Part shown: positions 7,791 to 17,376 of the stretch, one piece after another
How the letters are laid out: the number at the start of each line of letters is the position of its first letter
Numbering within the stretch: position 1 is the stretch's first letter
NCBI GenBank assembly: GCA_016872355.1
Contig: VGZY01000012.1
Coordinates: 1 to 50,090 of the forward strand
Source: SAR202 cluster bacterium
GTDB taxonomy: Bacteria > Chloroflexota > Dehalococcoidia > Lucifugimonadales > VGZY01
Reading direction: 5' to 3'
DNA: 50,090 nt
Notes under the pieces: model-generated
Seen by the model: only the letters and a program-made list of their open reading frames with translations
Databases searched by the model: none
Told to the model about the DNA's origin: nothing
Made by a program: the position numbers and the translations under genes

Positions 7791-8290
7791 ATGAGTCGCT
7801 CCGCCTCGAGAAGCGTCGACAGGCCGTCCAGGCCACCCCGCCGCACCAGAGAGACCCGGCGCTCCGGGGACTCAGAACCCCACTCCGTCAAGCATCGCGA
7901 CCCCGAAAAGGCACACAACGAACCGCAGCCCGACATGAAGCTATCGCGTGGCTTCGGCAGGGAAGCGTTTCTTGACCACGCAGCTGCCATGGGCGACCAT
8001 TCTGAACGCGGTACCACGGCCGACAATCTTCAGCGCGCGTACGGGAATCGCTACGTCAACCGGCTTGCCGACCATATCCGGGGCAAGCAAACCGCGCAGA
8101 ATGCCTCCAGGCCCGCGGCCGCGCCGGCCACGTCAACGATTACCCCGACCCCCGCGCAGGTAACCCAGCCACAGCCTGCTCGTCGTGGTCAGCGATTTCT
8201 ACGGCGCCCGCTGGAAACGCCCCGGCGCGGAATGGGAAGAGAGCCGCAACCCCATCGACAAGGCCCTGGCCTGGGTGACAACCCTCGCGT
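7791..8290 (+). pseudogene. Frame-broken ORF with contractile-injection-cargo-like leader motif
   Basis: The ATG at 7791 follows AGGAG and opens a basic, low-complexity N-terminus. Next comes a segment (residues 79-92, NLQRAYGNRYVNRL) that fits the LQR-x-x-GN-x-x-V-x-RL pattern found near the start of DUF4157-type proteins linked to extracellular contractile injection systems. A Pro/Thr/Ala-rich linker follows (to about residue 126). The same frame then becomes arginine-rich nonsense. The frame one base later carries strongly GC3-biased coding from about 8164 to a TAG at 8288-8290 (SLLVVVSDFYGAR, then WKRPGAEWEES and NPIDKALAWVTT). One indel near 8160-8175 would join the two halves into roughly 165 residues. 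I do not recognise the C-terminal part. Confidence 0.5.
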
Positions 8291-8366
8291 AGCCGCCGAA
8301 AACTTGTGCGGTGTTGACTGGTGGCAGGATAATTGTTCTAGCCTTTCCCACTCGCCAGGAGCCCTC

Positions 8367-11300
8367 TTGATCCCTCTCAAGCTCACCGTCCGCAACTTCA
8401 TGTGCTACCGCGACGGCGCGCCCACGCTCGACCTGCAAGGCATACACGTCGCGTGCCTTTGCGGCCAGAACGGCCACGGCAAGTCCGCATTGCTGGACGC
8501 CATAACCTGGGTCCTCTGGGGAAAGGCGCGCGCGGACAAGCAGGAAGAGCTCATCCACCAGGGCCAGGAGGAGATGGCCGTCGACCTGGAGTTCCTTTCC
8601 CACGACCAGCGTTACCGCGCCAGCCGCAGGTACGGCCCTGTGGGCCGCGGCAGGCAGAAGGCCACGCTGCTGGATCTGCAGGTCCTGGAGGGCGATGCCG
8701 TCCGGCCGATCACAGGCAACACGGTGCGGGAGACGGAAGAGCGTATTCGCGATCTTCTGCACCTGGACTACGATACCTTCGTCAACACCGCCTTCCTCCT
8801 CCAGGGCCGCGCCGACATGTTCACCCGCGCCACGCCCAGCCAGCGCAAGGAGACCCTCGCCGAGGTGCTCGGGCTGGGGTACTACCAGAAGCTGGAGGAG
8901 CGTGCGAAGGAACGCGCGCGCGACCTGCAGGAAAAGGTCAGGGACATGGACGCCTCCATCGCACTGACAGAGCAGGAAGTCGCCCGCAAGCCACAGGTGG
9001 AGGCGGACCTTGCGGCGGTCGCCGCCAACCTGGCGCGCATAGAGCCGGAGGCGGAGGCGCAGAAGCAGAAGGCCGAGCAGGCGCAGCAGTCGGTCGACGC
9101 CCTGCGCGTCAAAGTGCACGAGCACGCGGCCGTCGTCCGCCGCCTCGCCGAAGCGCAGCGCGAGGTTGCGGAGCTGGAAAAACAGGCCCGCGCAAACCAG
9201 GCGAAAGTCATCGACTTCGAAACCGTGATGAAGCGCGAGCCGGAGGTGCGCGAGGGGCATGCCCTGCTCCAGAAGACCCGCGCGGAGGCCGAGCGGCTTG
9301 GCGAGGCGCTATCGAAGAAGAGCAGGCTCGACGGCGAGCGGTCGCGACTGGAGCAGGAGATAGCCGTCCGCAAGGCCGGGCTGTCCGCCGCCGCGGAGCA
9401 GCTAAGGAAGCGCATCGCGGACGAGCTCGAGCCCAGGGCGCACAGGCTCCCCCAGCTTGAGGCGGACCTTGCGGCCCTGGAATCAGAGCGCGCACGCCTG
9501 GACGCGCTGGAGGGGCAGGTGAACGCCGCCCGAGCGACGGCAGCCGCCATGGCGGCCGACCTGGAGCGGATGGACCGCGCGATGGTGGCGATGACCTCGC
9601 TGGACCAGAAGCGCACGGCCCTCGAAAAGGAGATCGCCGTGCAGAAGGAGCGGCTGGCCTACCAGGCCGGCCAGCTTCGGAAGACTGTCGCCGGAGAGCT
9701 GGAGCCGCGCGCCAGGCGCATCCCGGAGATCGAGAAGTACATATCGGAGCTCGTCGCCCAGGAGTCCGGCCTTTCAGCCGTGGCGGACTCCATCCGCGCC
9801 CGGCGGGCGGAGGCCGAGGACGCCTCGTCGAAGGCGAAGGCACTCCACGCCGCGAACGAGCGCCTGCGGCACGAGATGGCGGAGACCCGCAAAAAGTTCG
9901 ACATGCTGGACGGCGGCGACCTGAAGTGTCCCCTCTGCAAGACGGACCTCGGGCCGGAGGGCCAGGCCCACCTGCGCCGCGAGTTTGAGGCGCTCGGCCG
10001 CGAGAGCAAGCGCCAGTACCAGGCGAATGAGGCGGAGATAAAGGACCACGAAAAACGGCACAAGGAGCTTTCCGAGGCCATCGGAAAGCTGGAGGCGGAC
10101 CTCGACGGCAGGCGCCGCTTCGTCCAGAGCGCCATAGCCGGCGCGAAGCAGGCGCAGAAGGAGTCCATAGACGCCGCGCACAAGTTCGCCGTGACACAGG
10201 CGGACCTGGTCGCTACGGAAGCGACGATTGCGCAGTCCGACTTCGCGCACAAGGAGCGCGCGCGCCTCGCCACCGTGCACCGCGAGATATCGGCGCTCGG
10301 CTACGACGCCAACGCCCGCGCGGCGCTCCAGCGCAAGGCAAGGGAGACGGCAGACGCCATCGCCAGGCAGGAGGGAGAGCTGAACGCCGGGAGGCAGCGG
10401 GCAGGCATCAGGCTATCGAAGCTGGAGACGGACCTGGATGCGTGCCGCGCGGCCGCGCAGCAGCTTCCCGCCGCCCGCGCGGAGATGGAAGCCACTCAAG
10501 CGCGAATTGCTTCCGGGGACTTCGCGCATGAAGAGCGCCGGCAGCTTGGGAAGCTTAACGAGGCAGTCGCGGCGCTCGGGTACGACGCAGAGAAGCACCG
10601 GGAGGCCCAGGAGCAGGCAAAGAGGCTGGCGGAGTACGACGACCTCCACCGCAGGCTCTCGGACGCCGTCACGAATCTCAACAACCTCCGGGACGCCCTC
10701 GCGGTCATCACCGGCAGCCTCAAGCGCCGCAAGGAAGACGCGGCGCAGGACGAACAGCGCCGTTTGGCCCTGGACGGGGAGCTCAAAGCCCTCCCGGGAC
10801 TGGAGGCGGAGCTGGCAACCGCCCGCGGCCTCTTCCAGTCGACTGAAAGGAGGCTCCAGGACGCGCGCGTTCAGCACCGCGTGCTGTGCAAGCAGCTTGA
10901 GCGCATCGCGGCGCTGGAAGGGCAGCTGAAGGCGAAGCAGAAGGTGCGCAAGGACCTGGTGGACGAGAAGGGGGTCTACGACGAGCTGACGGTCGCGTTC
11001 GGCAAGAACGGAATCCAGGCCCTCATCATCGAGACGGCCATACCGCAGCTACAGGACGACGCGAACGAGCTGCTGGGGAGGCTGACGGAGAACCGCATGT
11101 TCCTCAAGCTCCAGCTTGCGGAGGGCCGCAAGGAGCGGCGCATCGGCATCGCCTCCGAGGAGCTGGAGATCAAGATATCGGACGAGATCGGCACGCGCAG
11201 CTACGAGACCTTCAGCGGCGGCGAGGCGTTCCGCATCAACTTCGCGCTGCGAATAGCGCTCTCAAAGCTCCTCGCGCGCCGTTCGGGCGCTCCCCTGCCC

Positions 11301-11495
11301 ATCCTGTTCATAGACGAGGGGTTCGGCTCGCAGGACCTCGAAGGCCAGGAGCGTCTCAAGGAGGCCATCCAGAGCATCCAGGAGGAGTTCCAGAAGATCA
11401 TCGTCATCACGCACGTGGAAGACATCAAAGAGGCCTTCCCCGTGCGCATAGAGGTCACCAAGACCCCCATGGGGTCCACGTTCGCCGTGGTGTGA
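8367..11495 (+). CDS. sbcC: SbcC/Rad50-type SMC-like exonuclease ATPase subunit
   Basis: This 1042-residue ATPase has the Rad50/SbcC architecture. The N-terminal Walker A is GQNGHGKS (33-40), the Q-loop/lobe is NTAFLLQGRADMF, and long coiled coils flank a zinc hook CPLC (Cys521/Cys524). The ABC signature FSGGEAFR (about 948) and Walker B ILFIDEGFGSQD (about 981) lie at the C-terminus. SbcC pairs with the SbcD/Mre11 nuclease to open hairpins and process DNA ends. I place the start at TTG 8367, 5 nt after AGGAG. The frame stays open upstream to 7791, but that extension belongs to another gene. No sbcD is recognisable in the window. Confidence 0.9.
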   Translation: MIPLKLTVRNFMCYRDGAPTLDLQGIHVACLCGQNGHGKSALLDAITWVLWGKARADKQEELIHQGQEEMAVDLEFLSHDQRYRASRRYGPVGRGRQKATLLDLQVLEGDAVRPITGNTVRETEERIRDLLHLDYDTFVNTAFLLQGRADMFTRATPSQRKETLAEVLGLGYYQKLEERAKERARDLQEKVRDMDASIALTEQEVARKPQVEADLAAVAANLARIEPEAEAQKQKAEQAQQSVDALRVKVHEHAAVVRRLAEAQREVAELEKQARANQAKVIDFETVMKREPEVREGHALLQKTRAEAERLGEALSKKSRLDGERSRLEQEIAVRKAGLSAAAEQLRKRIADELEPRAHRLPQLEADLAALESERARLDALEGQVNAARATAAAMAADLERMDRAMVAMTSLDQKRTALEKEIAVQKERLAYQAGQLRKTVAGELEPRARRIPEIEKYISELVAQESGLSAVADSIRARRAEAEDASSKAKALHAANERLRHEMAETRKKFDMLDGGDLKCPLCKTDLGPEGQAHLRREFEALGRESKRQYQANEAEIKDHEKRHKELSEAIGKLEADLDGRRRFVQSAIAGAKQAQKESIDAAHKFAVTQADLVATEATIAQSDFAHKERARLATVHREISALGYDANARAALQRKARETADAIARQEGELNAGRQRAGIRLSKLETDLDACRAAAQQLPAARAEMEATQARIASGDFAHEERRQLGKLNEAVAALGYDAEKHREAQEQAKRLAEYDDLHRRLSDAVTNLNNLRDALAVITGSLKRRKEDAAQDEQRRLALDGELKALPGLEAELATARGLFQSTERRLQDARVQHRVLCKQLERIAALEGQLKAKQKVRKDLVDEKGVYDELTVAFGKNGIQALIIETAIPQLQDDANELLGRLTENRMFLKLQLAEGRKERRIGIASEELEIKISDEIGTRSYETFSGGEAFRINFALRIALSKLLARRSGAPLPILFIDEGFGSQDLEGQERLKEAIQSIQEEFQKIIVITHVEDIKEAFPVRIEVTKTPMGSTFAVV

Positions 11496-11744
11496 GGTTT
11501 GAGGAGACGGACACACTTCAGGTCACAGAAAGTGGTCTTAGATTCGCCTCATGTTTTCTGACCGCCAAGCGGTCGTCATGCCCGATGAACGTTAAGTCCC
11601 TGACTGGTCACCGTCCATCACGCAGCCAGCCAATCACCGACTTCGAACGAGGTATGGATGAAACACTACCTGACTCTCTATGAATCCTAGTCTCCGTGTT
11701 GTCACTATGAAGCCTATCGATCCCCGTAATTAAAGGAGGAGAAT
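11496..11744. other. Intergenic gap between sbcC and the RHS island
   Basis: Nothing convincing is seen here. Composition drops in GC from the end of sbcC, marking the edge of the RHS island. A TAAAGGAGGAG string at 11731-11741 resembles a Shine-Dalgarno site on the plus strand but is not followed by a plausible ORF. Confidence 0.5.
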
Positions 11745-12131
11745 TTATCCCTTACGGACGGCCTTCAGCAGGATTCCCCAAGCGCCACTAGCCCAACAGA
11801 AAGCGAAAAACCCCGTAACGTTAGCGACGACAAGAATCCAAACAAAGCCGGTAAGCAGGGACCCGGTAAATCCAAATATAGATGTGCCCAAGGGCATTAC
11901 CCACATGGCCCACCTTCTTATGTCAGCCGATTCCTTCCTTATCTTTACAATCAGATACTCACCCCACAAAACTATGCCTATCAGGCCTAAGGTGGCCCCG
12001 CTAACGGCCATTGCCGGGCCGGTTTCAATGAACACTGGCTCGATTCTTGTGGACTGAACTATCTCTACATAACACAAAACGAGGAAGATTGTGAGAGCAG
12101 GCCATGCGTGTCCATTCCGAAAGAATGCCAT
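11745..12131 (-). CDS. Small four-helix membrane protein, candidate immunity partner of the RHS protein
   Basis: This 128-residue protein has four hydrophobic segments: ALTIFLVLCYVEIV, AVSGATLGLIGIVLWGEYLIV, WVMPLGTSIFGFTGSLLTGFV and ILVVANVTGFFAFCWASGAW. A short basic, charged loop (KIRKESADIRR) separates the second and third. The ATG at 12131 follows AGGGGAAG; the frame is open further upstream, but that part overlaps the RHS C-terminus and is not coding-like. It begins 38 nt after the RHS stop on the same strand. That is the position of an immunity gene in polymorphic-toxin loci. I recognise no family; the immunity role is inferred from position alone. Confidence 0.65.
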   Translation of the reverse strand: MAFFRNGHAWPALTIFLVLCYVEIVQSTRIEPVFIETGPAMAVSGATLGLIGIVLWGEYLIVKIRKESADIRRWAMWVMPLGTSIFGFTGSLLTGFVWILVVANVTGFFAFCWASGAWGILLKAVRKG

Positions 12132-12169
12132 GAACTTCCCCTGTATTTTTGGCGCTTTCAAAGACCACC

Positions 12170-15100
12170 TTAATGATGATTCCGCCAGGGTTGGCTGGCA
12201 ACTTGATAGCCGGCATACCCGGAGGCACCAATCGCTGCTACTCCCGCAACAACTGAAACGCCCCCTGCGAACCATCCCGCGGGACCTCCAACTCCCGCAA
12301 CTGTGACCCCAGCTCCGATCAATACAGCCCCTACGCCAAATCCGACTGCAACTATCGCTGTAGCGTGAAGGGCAGACTCCGCTTTGTGCGCCGCGTTCTT
12401 TGTTAGACAACTCCATCCGCAAAAATGCCCGTAGGGATCGGTCAGGGTGAGAGGATTATTCACGACATATCCATAATCCGAAAGCGAGAACATGCCGCCG
12501 TATACCTTCGGTAGCCAACGCGCCTCCCAGTAGTCAGCCCGTGTGAACCTCCCGTACGCGGGATCGTGATACCTCGCCATCATGTGGTACAGCGTCTTGC
12601 CGGCACTTCCCTGGTCCCTGTACGTAGATGAGTACTGGTATGGGTTGTACGTATTGAATGGCGTTCCCACATCTTCGCCAAACGGCCGGTAGTCGTAGTA
12701 GCCCACGGTGCCGTTGATCTTGATCAGGCCCACTACGTTCATAGAGCCATCATAAAGGTAGTAGTAGATCCCGTCCGCGTTCGAGACAAGGATGCGCCGC
12801 CCGTCCGGTGCGCGGACGTACCTGGCCAGCGTCTGATTGCCGCGCTTTTCAAGCGTCATGCCTACTGCGGAATAGTACTGCCGGGTCGTCGTCGAGTTCA
12901 CCACGCTCACGCGCCAGCCATCGCCATACGTAGACATACGTATGGCTGGTGCCGTCGATTGAGGACGTGACCATCCGGTCCGCGCCGTCATAGCCATAGT
13001 AGATGCCGGAGCCTTCGGATTTCAAGTTCCCGTTGTTTTCATAGGTGAAGCTCTTGGTAGTTGTTCCCACCGTCTCGGACAGCATCCAGTTCGCGGCGTT
13101 AAACGTATAAGAGTACGTGGCGCCCCCTACCGACATCTGGGTGCGGTTGCCGTTCCCATCGTACGTAAACGTCTGCGTATACGAGTTCGCGCCAACTCTC
13201 GAGGAGCTGCTGATTTGATTGAGGTCCGTGTAGGCGTAGGTGGTTGTGACGACATTGATATCCTCAACGAGCCGAGTCATGTTGCCGTTGTCGTCGTACT
13301 GGTAGTTGAATTTCTTCAGCGAAACACCGTTCCGCGAATTGTTGACCTGTGTCAAACGACCGCCCTGGTCAACACCGCCGCTTGTATAGCTGAAACTAAT
13401 GGCGTTGCCACTCGGATAGCCGATGGATCGGAGCCGGCCGCTCAGGTCATAGACAGGCCGAGTATTTCCGCCATCGTACGTGTTGTCAATATCGTTTACG
13501 CGTCCGTTGACGTCGTACTGGTAGGTCACGGTCTCCCCGTCGGCGTTGCGAAGGGTCAGCATATTTCCGATGCTGTCGTATGTGTACTGAGTGTACAGCC
13601 CATCCGGCTCCGTGATCTTCTTGATGATGTTCGTAGCGAAGTACTCGTAGGTGGTAGTCGCGAACGCACCGTTACGAATGTCCACCATCTGAGTCCGGTT
13701 ATCGTTCTTATCGTACTTGTACGTCACGGCAAAGGCGCTGCCGGTGGCGCACATATACGTCGTCGTCGCCAGTCGGGACAGGTAGTCGTACTCAAAGCAC
13801 GTCTGTTGGCCCTTTGCATCGGTACGGGATGTCATCAGGCTCCGCTCATTGTCATAGGCCATCTGAACGCGCGCTTTGGTGCTGCTTGCATTTATTGGCG
13901 TGTATATGTCCGTTAGCAACCCGTACCCGTTATAAGCGTATTCGTACGTCATGCCGGTGGGGTTTGACGAAGCCAGTGCAATGGCATTCGGGTCTTTGAC
14001 CGTTAGCTGCTGACCCCAGAAATCGTACGTGTAGTTCCAGGTGCCCCCCAGCTCGTCAACCTTCTGGGTCAATTCCTGTTTTGAGTTGTACGTAGACTCG
14101 GTAGACGTACTGCTGCCCTCAAACTTCGGCGACCACTGCTCGACTACCCTGTTCTGATGGTTGTAGCGGTACTCCGTTACATTACCGAGGCGGTCTGTTA
14201 CCGCAACCAGGTTATTGGGGTTGCCGCTCGGGTTTGAATCCTCATCTCCGCCATACGAGAATGTCGTCGTAGCATTGCTTGCGTCCACCTGCTGGACAAT
14301 GAGATTAGCGTCCCATGTCGCCGACATCCCTACGGCCTCAACGCGGGCCACGTCGAACCATACCGAGCCGGTGGCATTGTAGAGATTTAGCTTAATGGTG
14401 AGCGACAGCTTGTCGGCAGAGGACGGCATCTTCACAGACGGTGTGCTCACTTCAAACCAATCGTTGGTGCCGGTATATGCCGGACTATCGAACTGCTGCC
14501 ACGACGCCAGGTTGTTGTCGTAGTACTCCATGCGCATGAATGCGCCGACCGCACCCGAGACGCTGCTTGTCTTTAGCCAGACTTTTCCGGTGTATACCTC
14601 GCCAGTGACTGCCCTGAACCGCTCGCTTGTGTTATCTCCTTCATACAGCTCCAGGGACCACCGGAGATCGGTGGAGGTAGCGTTAGTATTAAGCTTCGCA
14701 GAAGCGTCTCCAGCGTACTTCACGGAAGTATCCCGTGTATGGCTCCCACCGGGGCTGTTTCCTGACCAGGCCTGGATGATCGTCGCAACGCTCGTCTTCT
14801 CGAAGCTGCCATTATATGCGTTTCCGTACCTTAGGACCCCCGGATTGTCCTGGTTCGGCCCTACAAGGTCCCAAACCACCATGCCGTACTCAGCATTCTC
14901 AATGTAAACGCGATCCGTAGAGGTAGCATAATTGTCATGGTAATCGAATCTCGTTACATTGCCGCGTGTGTCTGTAACGGTCTTGACCCGCTTGTCCGAG
15001 AAGCCAGTATGATAGGCGATTGTGGTCGTCGCGTTCTTGGGGTCAGTGACGGTAGTGAGCACGGCGTACGGGCTGCCGGCGCTATATGCCTGATATCCGA

Positions 15101-17327
15101 AGTAAGTTGTCCTCGCGTCGCCTGTGCCAGCTGCCTCCTCAACACTCGAAAGGAAGGCGTACCCTGTGGAGGTAGCGTAATTCAGGATGGTGTCGATACC
15201 ATCGGGATCCTCGATCGCAGTCAGTACTTTGCTTCCTGAGCAGTGGCCGCTCGTCCACGTGAAATTCACGGAACGCGCGGTAGTTGAGGAGTCGCTGATC
15301 GAGGAGACATACCCGCCTCCGTCGTAATTGTAAGTAAGTTTGTTGGCGGTGTGAAAGCCGTCGTAGGTGCTCAGCAGCCTCTGGAAAGCAGGGCTGCCGT
15401 CTCCAAATGTGGAGCTGCCGCTGAATTCGTGTACGAGACCTATGTCGCTTGTGAGAAGCCACTTACCTGTGTTCGTGTTTTCCACAAGTGTCCAACGAAG
15501 TCCAGAGGCCGATTGATACTTGTAGGTCCCATCCCCTTGAGCGGTACGATTCTCGAAGAGATGAATCGCGCCGTCCGGTCCGTTGATGGTTGCACTTGTG
15601 GGCGTAACGCTCAAGCGTGGTGGCGATATCTGCCAGTTCGAGCCCATGCTCGCAGAGTCGCAACTCTGATTGGCCTTACTGTTGTAAAAGAGGGCTACAT
15701 CGAAGCCAATGCCCCTTCCGGGTATCGAGATCAGGTTCTTTTGGGCTACGACGTTGTGCTTGCTGGTAAGAGTTGTGTAAAGCGTTGTCTTTGCGCCGAG
15801 ACTCCAGGACTGCGACGCGTAGTAGCTCTCAAGTCCGAGGCCGTTGGAGGTGTTGTTATCGGAATCGACAGAGTAGGTGATTTCAAGTTTCGGCTGGTAG
15901 TCTGAAGTGGTGTCGCTCGATTGGAACATCCTGCCCAAATTAGTGGAAGGGCTCTCGTTTGAGACCTTGATCATAGCCCCATAGTTCGGTCTCACACCGG
16001 AAACCCAGTCTGCGGCAAGACCTGTGATGTCGAAATCGTACCACCCCTGCCAAGAAGGATAATCACTAAAGAAAGATGCGCTTGAAGTGGCGTAGAAGTC
16101 GCCGCCGGTAGACGTCCAATTCGTCGATCCGTCCCTCGTCTGCCAGGTAGCCCCAGCCTCCGTCCAGGGATTGGTTACGGCATGAACATTTAGTGTGACG
16201 TCGTCGTTGACAAACCAATCAAATGCATAAAGGGAAAGATCCGCCGAGTCAATTGTTGCGCTGGCGGGAATATGAGAAAGGTCGAACTGAACCAGCGCGC
16301 GGCTATAATATCCGGCATAAGAGAATACAGTTAGGTAGTCTCCGTGATAGTTTACGGTCGGCGTATCGCTCTCGAAGGATGTATCCTTCGCCGAGGTGGC
16401 ATCGGGTTGCATTGTAATCGTAGGGTCGATCACTAAAGGATAAACACGGCTAGAGTCGGCCAACCACTCTGCGTTGGGGGTTATGATCAGGTAACCATCT
16501 TTGATCTCCATCGACACGTCGCTCGAACGGTTAGGGTGCCCAACATCATTGTTTCCGCTGTCGTACATGAACGCCTTTGGCATGTACATGACTTGCTTGT
16601 CGCCCGAATACAATCCGATGGTGCCGTCTTCATTTTCCCGGACATCAAGGCCAGCCGTACCAACGGTAAATGTGAAGCTGGCGTCCTTAACGGGCTGCTT
16701 TAGAACAATCTCTTCCTTTACCCCGTCCGAGTTGACAGTGAGGACCAAGTCTACACCGGGATAGACTTCGGGATAGGTGATCTTGTTTCCTTCGACCACT
16801 GGCTCAACTTCCGCCGCGCCCTCGAGTCCGAAGGAAATTGCCTGGTCGCCCAGAGCAACTTTGACCCCGTCGGCGGACGACACGTCACCGAACATGGCTG
16901 TGAAACTATTTGCCGTCTTCTCAAATGCATAGCCTTCAGCAAGAGAAGGCCTCAGAGTGTTGTCGATGTCCCTCCATACTCCCGGAGACTCTTCGTAGTG
17001 GACCGGGCTGGAGTACACAGTGTCCGTGTAGGTTCCATCCACGTTCAGGACGGTCTTTGATTTGGAAGTGCGTTTCTGAAGGATTTCGCGGGAGGCTTGA
17101 GGCGACTTCAATTGGTCCCCCGCCGTTGTGATTGGGGCATTGTCAGGCGAGGGAGGAAATGACCTTTCCTCATCGTCGGCCAGCTCTGGCAGGATGGGAT
17201 CGGCGGTAAAGGCGTCCACAGGGGAGGAGGTTTGCGCCTGGGCCGTCCCCATTGGTAAGCCGGCAAAGAGTATCGCTAGGATCAGCAGGGGGGATATGAG
17301 CCTTGTGATAAGTCCCAGGTCTTTCAT
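12170..17327 (-). pseudogene. Secreted RHS/YD-repeat protein with DNRLRE-like domain, frameshifted
   Basis: This would be a cell-surface protein of about 1,715 residues if the frame is repaired. The ATG at 17327 (GAGG upstream) starts a Sec signal peptide (LLILAILFAGLPMGTAQA). A DNRLRE-like domain (about 320-490, with RALVQFDLSHIP), a carbohydrate-binding-like beta-sandwich (about 840-1000), YD repeats (about 1040-1465) and the RHS core (YDYRPFGE, ARYHDPAYGRF, DPYGH) follow. The reading frame changes between 12923 and 12942, where a 10-bp unit is present twice (9/10 identical). Removing one copy restores HTYGDGWRVSVV. After the core comes an 80-residue tip with a glycine-rich hydrophobic stretch. 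Codon use is less GC-biased than neighbouring core genes. Confidence 0.85.
12923..12942. repeat. 10-bp near-tandem duplication causing the RHS frameshift
   Basis: Two adjacent 10-bp units (12923-12932 and 12933-12942) differ at one base. They contain the palindrome CATACGTATG across the second unit. Ten bases is not a multiple of three, and deleting either unit joins the two RHS frames exactly. Confidence 0.75.
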
Positions 17328-17376
17328 TACCTTCCTCACTTTGCCGGCGCTGACGTACTAGCATCTCCCATTCCGA

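Follow-up and report, generated by a model that had tools for sequence, protein, structure and literature searches.

Hydrophobic polymorphic toxin tips that are countered by membrane immunity proteins are a kind already known, and four groups of described systems lie closest to the locus considered here. In Tse5/Tsi5 of Pseudomonas aeruginosa, an RHS pore-forming toxin is paired with a two-TM membrane immunity protein (PMC9637101, PMC10684867). The CDI ionophores (CdiA-CT/CdiI) are highly diverse helical membrane toxins in which a glycine zipper is the sole shared element, and their CdiI immunity proteins are very hydrophobic and very polymorphic proteins of 72-100 residues (PMC11630599). W-TIP is a predicted pore-forming domain that has been reported only in proteobacteria (Zhang et al. 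2012, PMC3482391). EsxX, TelE and TspA are LXG toxins of T7SSb with membrane-depolarising or membrane-damaging C-terminal domains; a glycine zipper occurs in EsxX and TelE, and membrane immunity is described for TspA (PMC12744356, PMC10434224, PMC7456083). A membrane protein encoded beside a glycine-zipper toxin is not necessarily its immunity protein, since in the TelE/TipE system the adjacent six-pass membrane protein gave no protection and a soluble protein did (PMC10434224).

The stretch analysed here (the window) comprises 50,090 nucleotides of a SAR202 cluster bacterium contig (Chloroflexota) and encodes on its minus strand an RHS protein with a short hydrophobic tip, followed by a small membrane protein (Table 1). 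The carrier opens with a signal-like segment and holds a DNRLRE domain at residues 318-488 (NF033679, E 1.2e-27), both in agreement with the preliminary description of the locus; Sec secretion would fit such an N-terminus, and the carrier may be displayed at the surface. The RHS/YD repeats (PF05593, E 2.8e-30) and RHS-associated core (TIGR03696, E 5.7e-12, 46 bits) that mark an RHS polymorphic toxin follow, although split over two frames, and a sequence match to Tse5 (8cp6, E 1.8e-12) lies in the YD-repeat region. The core ends at DPYGH, where the preliminary description had placed its end. This is the second site of a DPXG pair, of which the first site reads ADYW at a spacing longer than X18/19; the canonical DPXG-X18/19-DPXG autocleavage motif is not intact in the window carrier.

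Table 1. Features of the RHS locus, in window coordinates
Feature	Position	Strand	Basis or remark
RHS carrier, N-terminal and YD-repeat part	12849..17339	minus	1496 aa ORF; genuine coding ends near 12,930 (frame break)
Frame break in RHS carrier	12913..12930	minus	Collinear alignment of the C32 sister protein, differing frames
RHS-associated core (TIGR03696), ends NPLTLTDPYGH	12425..12691	minus	NCBIfam match
84-aa Gly/Ala-rich hydrophobic tip and stop, candidate membrane-acting toxin	12170..12424	minus	Sequence
128-aa multi-pass membrane protein, candidate immunity protein	11745..12131	minus	Sequence, predicted membrane segments

The RHS gene is not a single frame. The ORF at 12,849-17,339 and a second ORF at 12,170-12,997 (minus strand), which encodes the core, then 84 residues and then a stop, do not share a frame; on contig C32 of the same genome, a sister RHS protein is collinear with both, placing the frame shift between 12,930 and 12,913. 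The core-and-tip anatomy of the preliminary description stands; its treatment of the protein as one continuous carrier does not, the break having been missed. Because the carrier ORFs lie in different frames, the tip is detached from the secreted carrier as assembled, and no intact ORF leads from carrier through tip in the assembled sequence; this could reflect an inactive copy in the window or an error in the sequence. The sister gene (G000:C32, L223:914-6194) shares 48% identity with the window protein across the core and flank, while its tip of 141 residues is unrelated and the gene downstream is a different one, so that the tip differs between core-sharing paralogues, as it does among RHS polymorphic toxins. 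The 141-residue tip has no match in Pfam or NCBIfam; by eye its charged end, YYALDKSHSGEWQIEVYDKNFKAIG, resembles colicin E3-type RNases, and a 215-aa ORF lies downstream of the sister gene. Elsewhere in the window (7791-11495, plus strand), a 1234-aa SbcC/Rad50-like ORF carries an extra N-terminal stretch of ~200 residues, possibly a separate gene joined by frame, that contains DNLQRAYGNRYVNRL, a segment reminiscent of the LQRxxGNRxVxRL motif of contractile-injection-system-linked proteins.

The tip proper (12,424 down to 12,173, minus strand) contains 16 glycines (19%) and two Kyte-Doolittle membrane segments, at residues 24-42 and 49-67. It had been described as hydrophobic and GxxxG-rich, and of these two properties the first holds. 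The three GxxxG motifs are explained by composition (shuffle p 0.55), and the one GxxxGxxxG zipper (GGPAGWFAG) is within chance (shuffle p 0.34); GxxxG enrichment was consequently discarded as evidence. Across the class of hydrophobic tips defined below, the zipper occurs in 14/34 against 8.3 expected. Single-sequence AlphaFold modelling predicts, at low confidence (pLDDT 65), helices at residues 6-45 and 51-78. Neither Pfam nor NCBIfam recognises a domain in the tip, in line with the earlier claim that it has no recognised catalytic domain, and a search for a further toxin domain following it at the window locus found none. No usable homologue of the tip was found in GTDB contigs, IMG/VR or the PDB, where no chain matches significantly (the best, an unrelated resolvase, at E 0.085), so that there is no sequence relation to Tse5-CT.

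The neighbouring ORF (coding 12,131-11,748, the stop reaching 11,745) begins with an ATG 38 bp past the RHS stop on the same strand, preceded by an SD-like AGGGGAA, which bears out the spacing and orientation first reported; promoter and terminator counts in a scan of 11,480-12,500 are at chance level. The four helices originally assigned to its 128-residue product are recovered as Kyte-Doolittle segments at a cut-off of 1.3, and two remain at 1.6, while the single-sequence AlphaFold model is all-helical at low confidence (pLDDT 68). No usable relative of this protein was found in 98 genomes of the order, 400 genomes of the phylum, GTDB contigs or IMG/VR, nor in phages, plasmids, the PDB, Pfam or NCBIfam. 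One match in genome G036 (E 3.8e-4) was dropped, as it contains four internal stops and reaches 30% identity over 76 residues. A second instance of the tip together with the 128-aa protein was likewise absent from the genomes and databases searched. Since neither protein has a usable relative, co-occurrence of homologues cannot decide their relationship, and the case for the window pair itself rests on the behaviour of the class to which it belongs.

The locus resembles Tse5/Tsi5 in its RHS shell, in a hydrophobic C-terminal fragment without an enzyme (which in Tse5 targets the cytoplasmic membrane) and in the small membrane neighbour. It differs in that Tse5 is delivered by T6SS, whereas the window carrier begins with a Sec-type N-terminus and includes a DNRLRE domain; Tse5-CT (residues 1169-1317) has about 149 residues compared with the 84 of the window tip, and the DPXG-X19-DPXG protease motif, intact in Tse5 (PMC10684867), has a degenerate first DPXG in the window. 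The CDI ionophores are carried by CdiA/CdiB in proteobacteria, whereas the window carrier is an RHS/DNRLRE protein by Pfam and NCBIfam and not a filamentous haemagglutinin. They are also longer, with an entry domain and a five-helix bundle where the window tip has roughly two helices and no entry domain, and CdiI has two helices as against the four segments of the window partner. As a polymorphic toxin domain W-TIP is likewise small and hydrophobic, and two membrane helices are predicted in it, but its signature and RxxR are missing from the window tip on inspection. The LXG toxins ride on LXG/T7SS carriers in Bacillota, without an RHS shell.

Across the phylum, hydrophobic RHS tips are associated with small membrane proteins encoded next to them. 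Among RHS homologues retrieved with a core-plus-tip query, short hydrophobic tips are common and the adjoining gene is strikingly often that of a small membrane protein. For a test at the level of the class, RHS cores were drawn from family searches restricted to the core, giving 151 RHS genes that had a readable tip and 700 bp or more of downstream sequence and were scored by fixed rules: a tip was called hydrophobic if the mean Kyte-Doolittle value over its last 100 residues was at least 0.3, and a membrane neighbour was an ORF of 60-260 aa on the sense strand, starting within 300 bp and containing two or more membrane segments. Such a neighbour follows 24/34 hydrophobic tips and 18/117 others (odds ratio 13, p = 2.2e-9), a rate of 71% against a base rate of 15%; for the remaining 10/34 hydrophobic tips, the rules identify no membrane neighbour. 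The association persists when the loci that prompted the idea are left out (18/28 versus 17/116, p = 4e-7), when the RHS-rich family f81 is removed (17/21 versus 15/95) and when one random gene is drawn from each of 71 genomes (median p = 4e-6), while the same criterion applied to the antisense strand returns 0/34 and 3/117. Because the 0.3 cut-off was chosen after the continuous distribution had been viewed, the cleaner numbers are those for tip hydropathy as a continuous predictor of a membrane neighbour (AUC 0.82) and for a stricter rule requiring a short tip with its last membrane segment near the end (14/20 versus 28/134, p = 2e-5). The 24 positive pairs comprise 24 mutually unrelated membrane-protein families and 21 tip families (BLAST E 1e-3), and the association is therefore not one family counted repeatedly. 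It is that of a functional class whose members have diverged or arisen repeatedly, like polymorphic toxin/immunity pairs.

The association extends to alternating cassettes. At four loci in three genomes (L119 and L121 in G138, L220 in G412, L222 in G445), short genes encoding an RHS core and a hydrophobic tip alternate with genes for proteins of 60-125 aa with 2-3 TM segments, the layout of tandem cassettes that is typical of polymorphic toxin systems; the partner proteins in these arrays have only sub-threshold matches in Pfam and NCBIfam scans. Within L220 a near-identical second membrane ORF (LADLLPTRPFELI) recurs between the cassettes. Two RHS clusters of other kinds were also seen. One (G039:C1:730839-788427, L225-L227) is a run of ~36 genes, all in tandem on one strand and spaced 0-250 bp with hardly any other genes interspersed, whose products of ~460-510 aa share a near-identical N-terminal membrane or signal segment (RWGRYLLAGALLAVLVASGISAQLFATS) and an RHS core and end in variable, partly repeated tips of 260-300 aa; it looks like an expanded mini-RHS array without immunity genes. 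In the other (G322:C1:1764076-1777793, L190), where the tips are long and soluble, adjacent genes of unequal length carry two near-duplicate tips (HCALLEENASGLCVRFTPGG...), suggesting recent cassette duplication.

We therefore read the window locus, with a probability of roughly 0.6 for the full mechanism that follows, as a polymorphic-toxin unit consisting of a pore- or ionophore-type RHS tip and a membrane immunity protein, a reading that shares its logic with the closest tested precedents, Tse5/Tsi5 (PMC9637101) and the CDI ionophores with CdiI (PMC11630599). A Sec-exported RHS shell protein would bear the short C-terminal tip, which would fold into a glycine-rich helical hairpin, insert into the cytoplasmic membrane of a target cell and dissipate the membrane potential as a pore or an ionophore. 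The 128-aa four-helix protein would be the cognate immunity protein, residing in the producer's own membrane and blocking insertion or assembly of the tip. We infer toxicity and depolarisation, as well as direct binding as the basis of immunity and delivery into neighbouring cells. The idea of a membrane toxin countered by membrane immunity, raised in the preliminary description, is clearly supported for the class, and the specific pair stands without homologues.

The strongest rival, which we consider unlikely, takes the tip for no more than the hydrophobic linker or entry segment that is often found between RHS cores and their enzymatic toxin domains, the toxin having been lost here, and the 128-aa gene for a leftover or unrelated membrane gene, the whole being a decaying RHS element. 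The sister protein on C32 lends this some weight, as a single hydrophobic segment past its core is followed by a charged domain of ~100 residues, and decay is suggested by the frame breaks in both carriers (that of the sister lies near L223:3171-3180) and by a further RHS copy, on C26, of which only a remnant is left. Against such loss, many RHS proteins of the phylum have short tips of this kind that end in a clean stop, and these lie selectively beside a membrane gene, the alternation is kept in the tandem arrays, and the window tip spans two helices rather than one. The class statistic and the arrays oppose the loss of a toxin as a general account, and at the window locus alone it may still have occurred.

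Two membrane helices at the extreme C-terminus could equally anchor a Sec-exported protein, so that the tip might hold the RHS shell in the producer membrane, with the small membrane protein as an anchoring or assembly partner and not an immunity protein. We regard this as improbable: an anchor would be expected to have a conserved partner, yet the 24 partners and the 21 tip families of the positive pairs show no relation among themselves, just as polymorphic toxin and immunity proteins do not, and orphan short core-plus-tip genes in tandem require no anchor. That the pairing is accidental and the 128-aa protein part of something else, as the lack of any homologue or second instance of the pair might permit, is very improbable given the 38 bp gap, the shared strand, the SD-like site and a neighbour rate that is 15% after non-hydrophobic tips and 71% after hydrophobic ones.

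Our searches of open-licence papers turned up no account of RHS pore-formers from the phylum. Returning to the toxin and immunity reading, we give about even odds that the window pair belongs to a large undescribed phylum-wide set in which Sec-exported RHS proteins carry short ionophore tips, each paired with an unrelated membrane immunity protein of its own, and both stored and exchanged as tandem cassettes of core-tip and immunity genes. If so, RHS proteins would have their own equivalent of the CDI ionophores, with no need for a T6SS. Sequence searches detect membrane-acting polymorphic toxins poorly, since both the tips and their immunity proteins diverge past recognition; a score that combines the hydropathy of RHS tips with the presence of a small membrane ORF downstream recovers them without homology. 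The class-wide association suggests that membrane attack is common in the phylum, and in RHS proteins whose N-terminus is of the Sec type and not of the T6SS type.
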